From the NCBI GenBank assembly GCA_012799975.1, contig JAAZKF010000057.1, positions 1 to 33,384 of the forward strand: a DNA stretch of 33,384 nt. Reading direction: 5' to 3'. Position numbers and translations under genes: made by a program. The notes under the pieces are model-generated. The model saw nothing but the letters and a program-made list of their open reading frames with translations, was not told the DNA's origin and searched no databases. This document shows, piece after piece, positions 23,689 to 33,384 of this stretch. Source of the stretch: Burkholderiales bacterium (lineage in GTDB: Bacteria > Vulcanimicrobiota > Xenobia > Xenobiales > Xenobiaceae). Each line of letters begins with the position of its first letter. The first letter of the stretch is position 1.

Positions 23689-24467
23689 GCGGTCGCCTCC
23701 CCTCCGCAGCCCGCACTCTGCAGGGGAGACCCGGTGACGATCCGCCGCCCCCCGACTTCGAGGACCTTGACGGGACGGCCATACAGCGCCGAGAGGCGCT
23801 CGTCGTTGAGAATCCGGGCCACCGGTCCCAACGTCAAGCCGCGATTCAGGATGCCCACGGTGGGAGCGTGGTTGGCCACCAGGTTGAGCAGGTGGGTCAC
23901 CATAACGACCGTCATGCCTTGCTCGTGCAGGCCGTCGATCAGGTGCAGGGTGTCCTCCTCCGAGGCCAGGTCCATCCCCGTGGTCGGCTCGTCCAGAAGC
24001 AGGATCTCGGGTTCTCCGGCCAGGGCCCGGGCCATGAGGACCCGCTGTTTCTGGCCTCCCGAAAGATCGCGCAGGGACCGGTGGCGATTATCGGCCATCC
24101 CCACGCGCTCCAGGCAGTGACGGGCGAAGTCCCGGTCGGAGCGGGTGGGCCGACGGCCCAGACCCATCCGGGGATAGCGCCCCATGAGGGTCACATCCTC
24201 AACCGAGAAGGGGAAGGCCTCGTCCACCCCCTCCCGTTGCGGGACGTAACCGAAGCGCGGACGCTTCCCCCCCGGATAGAGGATCTCTCCTTCCAAGGCC
24301 CGCAGGTTTCCCAGCAGGGCGCGCAGCAGGGTGGTCTTCCCCGCTCCGTTCGGGCCGACCAGGCCGAGGTAGTCCCCGCGGACCAGGCAGAGATCCAGGT
24401 CGCTAAGGACGGTGTGCGCTCCGTAGCCCAGTCGGACTCCGCGAAATTCGACCAGGGTCTCATTCAT
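23682..24467 (-). CDS. Metal ABC transporter ATPase (second system, ZnuC-like)
   Basis: A 261-residue ABC ATPase. Walker A GPNGAGKT is at 38-45, the signature LSGGQ at 135-139 is canonical, Walker B ILLLDEP is at about 155-161, and the H-loop is MVTHLL. The block EAFPFSVEDVTLMGRYPR is typical of zinc/manganese importers. A C-terminal extension of ~40 residues (KVLEVGGRRIVTG, then Ser/Gly/Cys) may be a regulatory or metal-sensing tail, since it ends CGGEATAC; that is speculative. The ATG at 24467 overlaps the binding-protein stop (ATGA). Confidence 0.93.
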   Translation of the reverse strand: MNETLVEFRGVRLGYGAHTVLSDLDLCLVRGDYLGLVGPNGAGKTTLLRALLGNLRALEGEILYPGGKRPRFGYVPQREGVDEAFPFSVEDVTLMGRYPRMGLGRRPTRSDRDFARHCLERVGMADNRHRSLRDLSGGQKQRVLMARALAGEPEILLLDEPTTGMDLASEEDTLHLIDGLHEQGMTVVMVTHLLNLVANHAPTVGILNRGLTLGPVARILNDERLSALYGRPVKVLEVGGRRIVTGSPLQSAGCGGEATAC

Positions 24468-25375
24468 CGGAGGGCCTCGACCAGATTCGAGACGACGTGA
24501 TCCATCATCTGGACGTAGCTTTCCGCGCCGGGGACCCCGCCGGGCAGGACCGGGAGCTTGAGCACTCGGGCCCCGGTCTGACGGGCGACGGCCTGGGCTA
24601 TATTCTCGGGGAACCAGGTCTCCATCAAGATGACCCGGACCTTTTTCTCCTTAATCAGGGCGCTCAGGCGGTTGAGGTGGGCGGGCGAGGGGGAGATCCC
24701 GGGCTGGGGTTCGATGTGGCCGACCACCTGCAGACCGAAGTGACTTGCGAAGTAGGGCCAGGTGCTGTGCCAGGTCACGATGGGGACTCCCCGGAAGGGG
24801 GCCATCTGGGCCTTCCAGCGCCGGTCGGCGGTATCCAGGGCAGTCCAATAGGAACGATAGCCTGCGTCGTAGGTGGCCGCTCCGGCTGGGTCCAGCCGCT
24901 TGAGGAATCCGGTGACGTTGCGGGCCACGATTTTCATGTTGGTGGGGTCCATCGTGTAGTGGGGATTGCCCATGGGGTGGACATCACCCATGGTGCGGTC
25001 GACCGGGCCGCGAGGGACCTCCAGAACCCGGATGCCACTACTCGCATCCAGGAATCCCGCCCCCCCCGCCATGATGCGCTGGTTCCTGGAACCACGCAGC
25101 AGTTCGGGAACCCAGGCAACCTCCAGGTCCAGGCCGGTCTGGATGAAGGCGTCTGCCCGGGCCAGCGTGCGCAGGTAGCTGGGCCGGGTCTCCACCTGGT
25201 GGGGGTTCTGGTAGCCCACGCACAGGCTCTGGACCCGGACGCGTGAACCGCCCACCCCGCGGACGGCATCGGCCAGGTCGGGGGTGGTGGTCACGACCTC
25301 CAGGACCTCGGCCCGGACGGGGAGGGCGCTGCACAAGAGCAGGATTATGGCCAGAAAGGCTCGGCGGAAAGACAT
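24464..25375 (-). CDS. Zinc-type ABC transporter substrate-binding protein (second system)
   Basis: A 303-residue periplasmic binding protein with a signal peptide (FLAIILLLCSALPVRAEV). Ligand candidates follow the cluster A-I pattern: NPHQVE (His59), DVHPMGNPHYTMDP (His133/His139), TWHSTWPYFASHFGL (His203) and METWFPE (Glu252). There is no long His-rich loop like that of some ZnuA proteins. Start at 25375: GAGGAGG lies 5 nt upstream; an upstream extension of 69 codons is Ser/Pro-rich and lies inside the preceding gene. It follows the outer-membrane protein after 10 nt and overlaps the ATPase gene, so the genes are one operon. It should deliver Zn or a similar divalent ion to the permease. 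Confidence 0.9.
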   Translation of the reverse strand: MSFRRAFLAIILLLCSALPVRAEVLEVVTTTPDLADAVRGVGGSRVRVQSLCVGYQNPHQVETRPSYLRTLARADAFIQTGLDLEVAWVPELLRGSRNQRIMAGGAGFLDASSGIRVLEVPRGPVDRTMGDVHPMGNPHYTMDPTNMKIVARNVTGFLKRLDPAGAATYDAGYRSYWTALDTADRRWKAQMAPFRGVPIVTWHSTWPYFASHFGLQVVGHIEPQPGISPSPAHLNRLSALIKEKKVRVILMETWFPENIAQAVARQTGARVLKLPVLPGGVPGAESYVQMMDHVVSNLVEALR

Positions 25376-25385
25376 CGGGGCCTCC

Positions 25386-26765
25386 TCAGTACTTGTGGGC
25401 CCCGTGGGGGCCGATGGTGAGGTTCCACTGGATCTGGAACTCGTCGAAGGGACGCGAGAAGGTGGGGTTATAACGGCTGTATTGGAAGCGCAGGGCGCTC
25501 CACTCGCTGTTGAGGAACTCGAGAAGGGCGCTGGCGCGGCGCTGGCGTTCGCCCGGATGCATGGGCAGGTCGGTCTCGTCATAGCGCACCCCGGCCCGCC
25601 AGTTCCGGTTGAAGCGGTAGTTCAGGAAGCTGTACCAGCCGTCGAAGTCCCGGGCTTCCTCCCTCTGATCCATGGGCTTCTGGCGCCCGACCAGGTATTC
25701 GGTCTGCCAGACCAGGTTCCGATAGGGGTTGTCCAAGGGACTCCACTTCAGGGTCAGGTCGGCCCCACCGATCCGGGAGCTCTCCAGGTGATGGTTATGG
25801 ATCGTGGAGGTCGCACCCGAAAGCCCCAGCATCAGGGTGGTGTCCTGGTTCAGCTCGGCCATGTTCTCGAGGCGAGCCACCCACAAAGGCCTGGTATTTC
25901 CATCGCTGGGGAAGAGTTCGAAGGCGTGGTGCGCCTCGTCGTGTCCTTCCTCTCCGTGCTCGTGGGCGTGCTCATGGGCGTGGCCGTAGCGGCTGCCCAT
26001 CTGCACCGTGGCTTTGGAATACCAGGGAACCGGGGCCAGCCAGGACAGTTCGATTCCGGGTGAGCGCAAGCCGCAGTGTCCGAAGAACTCTTCAGCGGGC
26101 AGGGGGCGATCGATCTGGGGCAGGGCGTGGGTATGGACGGTGTTGATCCGTCCCACCTCGTTGAGGAAGAGCCCGGCCCTGGCCTGCAGGCCACCCGGAA
26201 GGCCGGTATAGGTGGCGTAGGCTTCCTCCACCTCGGGGGTTTCGCCGCTATGGAATCCGATGAAGGCGTCCAGTCGGGTCTTGGGGTCCACGGGAGCCTG
26301 GAGCGCCAGTTCCACCTCCTCGACGAAGAAGGTGTTCCGCTGGGCGTCCTCGGGGCGCCCTCCCTTTTGTCCTCCCAAAAGGGCCGAGACCGAGATATTG
26401 GGGTTCATGGAGGGTTGGGAGCCGGTAGCCGAGGAGTTTAGATCGGTCTGGACGGCGCTGGCCGGCGGCGGTTCGGGGCCCGGATCCTGGGCGTGCTCGC
26501 CCTCGGGGGCGGGAGTCGGGATGGTGGGGTCTGCCTGGGTAGAGGGTTCCGCCTGGGCTGAGGGCCGCAGGAGTCCCTCCAGGGTCTGACGGAGCTGATC
26601 GATTTGGGATTGCTGTTCTTCGAGGCGCTGGCGCAGCTCGCGGATCTCGCGATCGCGGGGATCCTCTGGCGTGGTGGGCTGGGCCGGGACGGGGGCAGCC
26701 AGGCACGTCAGGAAAAGCGTGCATAGGGCCAGCGTCCGTTTCAGGGACGGGTATGACCAGGACAT
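25386..26765 (-). CDS. Outer-membrane beta-barrel-type protein with His-rich loop, linked to zinc importer
   Basis: A 459-residue protein. A signal peptide (ends PAPVPAQ-like, about residue 29) is followed by a short coiled coil (REIRELRQRLEEQQSQIDQLRQ trimmed region 38-60), a Pro/Glu/Thr linker, then alternating amphipathic strands (from ~120) typical of a barrel: for example LTLKWSPL and WRAGVRYDE. A loop at 262-280 carries His, Glu and Asp in high density (HAHEHAHEHGEE). This layout resembles porin-like proteins encoded with metal ABC importers. It is immediately upstream of the binding protein (10-nt gap), so it probably admits or captures zinc at the outer membrane. AGGAGG lies 9 nt before the ATG. 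The C-terminus is Tyr, not the classic Phe. Confidence 0.8.
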   Translation of the reverse strand: MSWSYPSLKRTLALCTLFLTCLAAPVPAQPTTPEDPRDREIRELRQRLEEQQSQIDQLRQTLEGLLRPSAQAEPSTQADPTIPTPAPEGEHAQDPGPEPPPASAVQTDLNSSATGSQPSMNPNISVSALLGGQKGGRPEDAQRNTFFVEEVELALQAPVDPKTRLDAFIGFHSGETPEVEEAYATYTGLPGGLQARAGLFLNEVGRINTVHTHALPQIDRPLPAEEFFGHCGLRSPGIELSWLAPVPWYSKATVQMGSRYGHAHEHAHEHGEEGHDEAHHAFELFPSDGNTRPLWVARLENMAELNQDTTLMLGLSGATSTIHNHHLESSRIGGADLTLKWSPLDNPYRNLVWQTEYLVGRQKPMDQREEARDFDGWYSFLNYRFNRNWRAGVRYDETDLPMHPGERQRRASALLEFLNSEWSALRFQYSRYNPTFSRPFDEFQIQWNLTIGPHGAHKY

Positions 26766-31309: not shown

Positions 31310-33384
31310 ATGGCTGAGAATTCTCGTCTTTGTCCGGTCTGTGCCAAGCCTCTGGAGGGGCAGGCCAGGCGCACTGCGTGCCTTCGTTGCCAGAACTTAT
31401 ACCACCAGGAATGCTGGGAAGGTCTGACCCGGTGCCTGGCCTTCGGGTGTGTCGGGACCCCCGAGGAGGTTCTTCAAGACCTGGGGGAACCCGTCCAGGC
31501 AAAGCCTTGTCCGTCCTGCAAAGCCGAGAGTCCGGCCAACGTGGCGCTGTGCCTCTCGTGCGGTACGGATATCTTCGAAAAACCTCCCCGCGCGGTCTTC
31601 ACGTCTTTTGCCGGTTGGCAGGCCGCCACTCCCGAGGACCTGGTCCTGGAATTGGACCGCCATTGGGAGAACGCCATCCAACACCTCTATAACGGTGATC
31701 TGGAGTTCTGGTTCAGCGAGAATGGGCGCCTGGATCTGGCCGAGGCGGCCCGGACGGCGCGGCGCAACCATGAACAGCGCTCTGTCGGGCTGGAGTCCTT
31801 CCTGCTGGCCAGCAATCTGGTCGACCCACCCCGGATGGAGGTAGTCCCGGCGACACTGGAGCTGGAGGGCCCTGGGCCCACCTTGACCAGCGCTTTGGAG
31901 ATCCGGAATTCGGGTCGTGGCTACCTGTCTGGAATCCTGTTGGCCGAGGTCTCCTGGCTGACTTTGGAACCCACCGAGTTTGCGGGGAACCGCACGCGGA
32001 TCGCGGTCACCGCCGACCTCGGCAGTCTTCCCGACGGCGCGGTTCCCGGGGTGATCCGCATCCAGGCTCCAGCCCAATCCCTGGAGGTCCACGTGACCGC
32101 CCGGCGCCTCTCGATTGCCGCAGGGGTGGCGCTGTACCGGGACGGGCAGACCTCCAAAGCACGAGTCCTGTGCCGAAAGTTGCTCGATGTCCAGGCCGCG
32201 CACGCCGATGCGGTGGTCCTGCTGACGGCCTGTTATCTCAAGGAGGAGAATCCCACGGCAGCCGTTCAGGCCTTGCGCAACCTGTCCGGAGCCTGTCAGG
32301 AATTACCCTCGGATCTGATCGAATTCGTCTTCCGTTGGTTGAGCCAGAACGACCCGGCAGCTTCTGGCCTCGAACGCGTCGAGATCTATGAAGCGCTGAT
32401 CCCTTGTGCGGAGGGCCCTCTGGGCAATGAACTCCGGCGAGCCCTGGGCCAGGTCGCCATGGAACGGGCTCGCCTGGCCACCGAGGCTTTTCAGGAAAAC
32501 AACACCTCGTTGTGGCAAGGGAGGACGGCGACTACCCAGGACGTGATCGAGTTGTTGCAGATCGCGGCGGCCTACGATCCCACGCTGGCCGAAGAGGCAG
32601 CCGGTCTGCAGAAGCAACTCCGTCGGAAGGTCAGCCGGGGGAAAATGGCCTTCAATCTGACCGCCGTCCTGGTCCTCATCGCGGTGCTGGCGGCTGCCAG
32701 CAGTTCCTGGTTGTGGACCTGGAAGCAGTCCCGGGATCTCCAGCAATCCGCAGCCCAGGCCCTTCAAGCCGGCAAATTTGAGAAAGCGATCCAGGAATAC
32801 CGGATCCTGCTGAACTCCAACGTCGACAACACGGATTATCGTTCCAACCTGGTGCGGGCGCTCTTCATGCAGTCACGCGCGGCCGAGGAAGGCGGGGATT
32901 CCCCGCGCAGCAGGGCTGCACTCATCCAGGCCATCGACCTGTGCATCGGCCGCCCCCAGATGCAACAGGCGGCAGCCGCCATGCTTCTGGACTGGGCCAA
33001 GGAACTGGAGACCAAGGGACAACCGGGGGAGGCTCGGGTCCGACTGGAAAGGGCCACCCGATTGGATGAGCAGAATCCCGAGGTCCAGACCTCGCTGCGG
33101 CGACTGGCCAGTGACACCGATCTGTATTGGAAGGTTCACCAGGTGGTCGAAGGGCCCATGGGCAGCTATCCCGTAGAGAACTACAAGGAAATGGGGGCTG
33201 TGGCGGCGGGTGTTCGTGAGCTGGTCACCCGTGGTATGGTCCCTTACGAGTCCAGGATGATGGTCGCTTTGGCGGACGTCACAGGCGATGGAATCAAGGA
33301 ACTTCTGGTCGCGGGAACCCATAAGAAGGATCCGCAGCCTGAAGGCCGTTATGCCATCTATCGCGTGAACAAGTCCAGGCTGGA
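31310..33384 (+). CDS. RING-like finger / zinc ribbon / single-span membrane protein with FG-GAP-like motif, 3'-truncated
   Basis: The frame runs from ATG 31310 (AAGG with ~6-nt spacing) to the window end without a stop: at least 691 residues. The N-terminus has eight ordered ligands, C8-x2-C11-x12-C24-x2-C27-x4-H32-x2-C35-x6-C42-x4-C47, matching the prokaryotic RING finger type. A zinc ribbon C67-x2-C70-x10-C81-x2-C84 follows. Residues ~170-280 look beta-rich (Ig-like); ~285-440 are helical, TPR-like. One hydrophobic span lies at ~450-468 with flanking Lys/Arg, then more TPR-like helices (AAQALQAGKFEKAIQEYRIL). Near the end, ADVTGDGIKELLV (from Asp656) is an FG-GAP/VCBS calcium-type turn, which normally repeats. 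The finger should be cytoplasmic and the FG-GAP part external. No function is assigned. Confidence 0.85.
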   Translation, partial: MAENSRLCPVCAKPLEGQARRTACLRCQNLYHQECWEGLTRCLAFGCVGTPEEVLQDLGEPVQAKPCPSCKAESPANVALCLSCGTDIFEKPPRAVFTSFAGWQAATPEDLVLELDRHWENAIQHLYNGDLEFWFSENGRLDLAEAARTARRNHEQRSVGLESFLLASNLVDPPRMEVVPATLELEGPGPTLTSALEIRNSGRGYLSGILLAEVSWLTLEPTEFAGNRTRIAVTADLGSLPDGAVPGVIRIQAPAQSLEVHVTARRLSIAAGVALYRDGQTSKARVLCRKLLDVQAAHADAVVLLTACYLKEENPTAAVQALRNLSGACQELPSDLIEFVFRWLSQNDPAASGLERVEIYEALIPCAEGPLGNELRRALGQVAMERARLATEAFQENNTSLWQGRTATTQDVIELLQIAAAYDPTLAEEAAGLQKQLRRKVSRGKMAFNLTAVLVLIAVLAAASSSWLWTWKQSRDLQQSAAQALQAGKFEKAIQEYRILLNSNVDNTDYRSNLVRALFMQSRAAEEGGDSPRSRAALIQAIDLCIGRPQMQQAAAAMLLDWAKELETKGQPGEARVRLERATRLDEQNPEVQTSLRRLASDTDLYWKVHQVVEGPMGSYPVENYKEMGAVAAGVRELVTRGMVPYESRMMVALADVTGDGIKELLVAGTHKKDPQPEGRYAIYRVNKSRL

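Follow-up and report, generated by a model that had tools for sequence, protein, structure and literature searches.

The last gene of the window, a stretch of 33,384 nucleotides analyzed at its full length (contig C249), encodes a single-span membrane protein. It joins a RING/PHD-like zinc finger and a zinc ribbon, most likely inside the cell, to a TPR region and a partial FG-GAP-like domain outside. We give a slightly better than even chance to the reading that this protein is a single-pass, envelope-spanning scaffold or receptor, in which the finger would serve protein interaction rather than ubiquitin transfer. The anatomy reported in an earlier note on this DNA was confirmed: it is real, more extensive than described and recurrent in relatives, and the earlier note had missed a helical and an Ig-like domain (residues 96–168 and 171–266).

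Gene and domain architecture

The open reading frame was still open at the window end, and the gene therefore runs off the contig. Contig C332 of the same genome (3.65 Mb, 452 contigs) carries, on its minus strand, a sequence identical to the last 127 bases of the window, which completes the protein. The joined protein had the same length, without gaps, as those of three congeners (74–86% identity), and the overall dN/dS against these congeners (0.19–0.30) indicated purifying selection. From the N- to the C-terminus, the order of domains was finger, zinc ribbon, helical domain, Ig-like domain, TPR, span, TPR, and a C-terminal domain with two loops (Table 1).

Table 1. The gene and its parts, with nucleotide positions in the window
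Feature	Position	Strand	Basis or remark
Gene, 854-aa single-span membrane protein	31310..33384	+	Residues 1–691 within the window; remainder on contig C332
Binuclear treble-clef finger C4HC3, Prok-RING_1, residues 7–50 (predicted)	31328..31459	+	Ligands C8 C11 C24 C27 H32 C35 C42 C47; Pfam, alignment, PDB profile
Four-Cys zinc ribbon, residues 66–86	31505..31567	+	Ligands C67 C70 C81 C84; Pfam, alignment
Helical domain, residues 96–168	31595..31813	+	HLYxGDxExW core, invariant in family members
Ig-like domain, residues 171–266	31820..32107	+	DUF5717_N over cut-off
Cytoplasmic TPR, residues 276–325	32135..32284	+	TPR_19, E=1.6e-8
Single transmembrane span, residues 446–464	32645..32701	+	Positive-inside, N-terminus cytoplasmic
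Extracytoplasmic TPR region, residues 484–593	32759..33088	+	Pfam; TPRs at 484–527 and 558–593
First FG-GAP-type loop, DVTGDGIKEL, residues 656–665	33275..33304	+	Sequence
Second FG-GAP-type loop, DRNRDGRAEV, residues 761–770	Beyond the window, contig C332

In all eight orthologues, the 15 residues preceding the span held 3–7 K/R and the 15 following it held 1–3. By the positive-inside rule, this excess points to an N-terminus inside the cell, so that the finger and ribbon most likely lie in the cytoplasm and the C-terminal domain outside, as the earlier note had placed them around one span. Its TPR-like helices, all assigned to the outside, are divided: the two TPRs behind the span would be external, but the one at residues 276–325 is internal.

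The FG-GAP turn seen previously proved to be real, and the sequence past position 33,384 added the second loop. Both DxxxDG loops, each followed by a hydrophobic strand, were kept in most homologues, and two clear loops suggest a putative domain of few propeller blades. FG-GAP stayed below the cut-off for this protein itself; FG-GAP_3 was also below the Pfam cut-off in an orthologue (L037, E=0.24) and in G004 (E=0.0017), and exceeded it (E=1.9e-7) only in the homologous C-terminal domain of a relative from another family (G020). AlphaFold models were of low confidence, both for the full protein, C-terminal domain region included (mean pLDDT 43.5), and for residues 1–92 with three close sequences (mean pLDDT 51.8). 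The full-length protein gave no sequence match in the PDB, no NCBIfam match over cut-off and no PADLOC match; no relatives were found on plasmids, and the papers searched held nothing on DUF5717.

The finger and the ubiquitin question

All 12 zinc ligands (eight in the finger, four in the ribbon) were invariant in an alignment of nine proteins, which bears out the separate ribbon noticed earlier. Prok-RING_1 scored 22.9 bits on this protein (E=8.6e-5), below its curated cut-off of 29.1 bits; it reached 29.1 bits in a six-frame search of the genome, 34.2 bits in the G005 orthologue and 40–41 bits in a shorter relative (L035). Of the models proposed in the earlier note, TPR matched here (TPR_19), Prok-RING_1 was borderline and FG-GAP_3 stayed below its cut-off. 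The locus of the shorter relative (G020:C62) consists of two adjoining genes (195 and 357 aa), each encoding a Prok-RING_1 finger, a zinc ribbon and two predicted spans.

The finger has the eight-ligand spacing of Prok-RING_1, and one aligned protein over the cut-off is spaced identically; the C4HC3 pattern is therefore normal for this family. What stands of the RING-type finger claimed previously is the set of eight ordered ligands, but their order, C-C-C-C-H-C-C-C, is C4HC3 and not the canonical C3HC4 or C3H2C3 of RING domains. C4HC3 is the ligand order of PHD fingers and also of RINGv E3s, so ligand order alone does not exclude an E3. A profile of the nine N-termini matched C1, PHD and RING chains in the PDB (E 0.002–0.02), the two best matches being one C1 and one PHD-type domain, and its zinc-ribbon part matched eL40 and RNF31 chains (E 0.006–0.03). 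The low-confidence model of residues 1–92 had a strand-strand-helix order in the finger; a fold search with it returned nothing significant, and RING, U-box and other zinc-finger chains made up most of its list. Judged by its sequence, the finger is a binuclear treble clef of RING/PHD-like type.

The strongest reading in the earlier note, that the protein is a membrane-spanning RING E3 ligase within a ubiquitin-like system of prokaryotes, is in our judgment extremely improbable. The finger does match Prok-RING_1, a family that reportedly includes members linked to ubiquitin-like systems, and RING E3s were among the PDB profile matches (E 0.005–0.02), but the C4HC3 order and the C1 and PHD-type best matches argue against it. 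UQ_con and Prok-E2_B had no match in any genome searched; the controls of both models were silent too, so these searches are inconclusive alone and do not show the absence of E2. No E1, E2 or Ub-like domains were found among the examined neighbors, nor was any ubiquitin-pathway gene recognized nearby. The only JAB gene in the vicinity, a Prok-JAB gene that two congeners carry about 4 kb downstream, was considered as a ubiquitin partner and rejected, as it stands beside DsrE and behind ispG, in a sulfur-relay cluster. The ubiquitin reading of the finger, and with it the link drawn previously, lacks support. An interaction scaffold or receptor is more likely than a ubiquitin ligase because nothing found ties the protein to the ubiquitin system.

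Distribution and gene neighborhood

Among the 149 genomes of the phylum that we searched, the eight of the family all had full-length matches and the other 141 had none. Close relatives of the host are UBP9_UBA1432 and UBP9_UBA6111, and the family falls in Eremiobacterota, UBP9; in the literature, UBP9 ranks as an order or class within Candidatus Eremiobacterota (PMC6664022). In three genomes from another family of the class, the core was present from the Ig-like domain onward (Ig-like, TPR, span, C-terminal domain) and fingers were absent; the C-terminal end was not recognizable in one of them (G015). Since these relatives keep the core, the finger seems to have been either added to or lost from a core able to work without it. 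A 625-aa protein of a further family (G020:C117; L118 3267–5141) combines one span and TPR with a RING-like finger and with an FG-GAP domain that passes its cut-off, so the layout is recurrent. The central claim of the earlier note, a RING-like finger joined through one span to an external TPR/FG-GAP-like part, thus holds across the eight family genomes and, in this shorter form, in another family.

In this genome, 14 bp separate the stop codon from the start of the downstream gene; the gap is also 14 bp in another genus (G006), and the gene is adjacent in three congeners as well (the G001 copy is cut by the contig end). It encodes an FtsH_ext-like membrane protein with two C-terminal zinc ribbons in this genus and none in G006. 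Compared with FtsH N-termini of the phylum, it gave an hhalign probability of 92% (97% with stand-alone homologues added); the Pfam FtsH_ext match was below cut-off (E=0.01 in G006, 0.28 in this genome). The gene was not found in the family genomes G004, G005 and G007, whose assemblies are fragmented, and is therefore not obligatory. The partner genes sought in the earlier note were of the E1/E2/Ub-like kind; a tightly linked partner exists, but it is this one. Stand-alone span-FtsH_ext-span proteins also occur in sister families. In one of these, f2 (L084 6772–7293, L085 6608–7141, L086 6301–6849, L087 6016–6549), each of their genes immediately follows a large gene that resembles a sugar-phosphate nucleotidyltransferase at its start.

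Upstream, nhaA lies in divergent orientation in four genera; in this genus, an MqnC-type radical SAM gene and an MBL-fold gene stand between it and the finger-protein gene. Elsewhere in the window (24464–26765, minus strand), a ZnuA-type zinc uptake gene neighbors an ORF of 459 residues that had no match in Pfam. On contig C332 (L004 219–572), three genes downstream and on the opposite strand, a small protein with the treble-clef domains zf_Tbcl and zf_Tbcl_2 is encoded.

Proposed role and comparison with known systems

The gene, its domains, the topology signal, the conservation and the close gene pairing are observed; from here on we infer ligand binding, partner interaction and the process served. 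The extracytoplasmic TPR and partial FG-GAP-like domain would bind something outside, the finger, zinc ribbon, helical, Ig-like and TPR modules in the cytoplasm would recruit partners there through peptide or protein binding, and the span would couple the two sides. The protein probably works with the FtsH_ext-like membrane protein encoded downstream. A scaffold or receptor is supported by the family-wide domain order, the invariant zinc ligands, purifying selection and the conserved 14-bp gene pair; counting against it are the three genomes in which the partner gene was not found, the low-confidence models and the FG-GAP matches below cut-off.

Two contexts outside the earlier note matter more than those within it: the linked FtsH-N-like gene and the Ig-like domain shared with kinases. 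The latter raises the alternative that the protein is an adaptor of membrane Ser/Thr kinase signaling, either docking with kinases or acting as their kinase-less counterpart, because in the kinases of the phylum this domain is the module between the kinase domain and the spans. Profile and protein searches found the Ig-like region in many proteins, and all seven that were read were kinase-like with this arrangement, one of them (L021, G007) from the same family; among six scanned with Pfam, Pkinase passed its cut-off in five and fell short of it in the sixth, and four matched DUF5717_N. However, proteins with a domain in common do not necessarily act in one pathway, the finger-protein gene had no kinase gene in view beside it, and the kinases match the DUF5717_N model over about 10–119, whereas this protein matches about 136–288. 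We consider this adaptor role unlikely.

The linked gene gives weak, indirect support to the quality-control receptor suggested in the earlier note, through its FtsH-like N-terminal region. A further alternative is that the protein is an accessory of FtsH-type membrane proteolysis: the FtsH_ext-like protein would mix with FtsH or with partners of FtsH, and delivering or sensing substrates would fall to the scaffold. Two genera keep the neighboring gene at a short distance, which fits such a role, as does its FtsH-N homology, but the Pfam match is weak, the sister-family counterparts follow the nucleotidyltransferase-like gene instead of a finger-protein gene, and the partner was not found in three family genomes; we find this quite unlikely. 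Bolder and decidedly improbable is an undescribed class of envelope receptor, FG-GAP-like outside, with a RING/PHD finger and kinase-associated Ig-like domain inside, that would steer membrane protein turnover with a protease-less FtsH-like subunit.

The scaffold or receptor that we favor bears on roles of the RING/PHD fold beyond ubiquitin transfer, namely plain protein interaction at the membrane. Here a RING-like finger is conserved in a bacterial protein that spans the membrane and has an FG-GAP-like part outside; the searches found no ubiquitin system in this lineage, and the paired protease-less FtsH-like gene offers a direct, testable partner.

Among known systems, Prok-RING_1 (PF14446) is described as comprising prokaryotic RING fingers (Burroughs, Iyer and Aravind 2011, as cited in PMC4678705). 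Its member L035 (41 bits) has an identical eight-ligand spacing and also combines a finger and a zinc ribbon with membrane spans; the present protein differs from that family in its borderline score, its added Ig-like, TPR and FG-GAP-like parts and its lack of ubiquitin neighbors. The G020:C117 protein of the same phylum shares the N-terminal RING-like finger, the single span, TPR and a homologous FG-GAP-like C-terminus, but lacks the zinc ribbon, helical and Ig-like domains, and its gene immediately precedes a type III-A CRISPR operon. There, in a single instance (L118 3267–9708), the gene ends about 10 bp before the operon (Cas10, Csm3, Csm4 and Csm2 by PADLOC), and a gene for a GAF-HD protein lies upstream of it. 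The downstream partner resembles the FtsH N-terminal region (PF06480) in having an extracytoplasmic domain of some 75 residues between two spans, but is without the AAA or protease domain of FtsH and has zinc ribbons in this genus. In the Ig-like membrane Ser/Thr kinases of the phylum, a kinase domain replaces the finger and ribbon and the FG-GAP-like part was absent in those read, yet the Ig-like domain likewise lies between the N-terminal part and the membrane.
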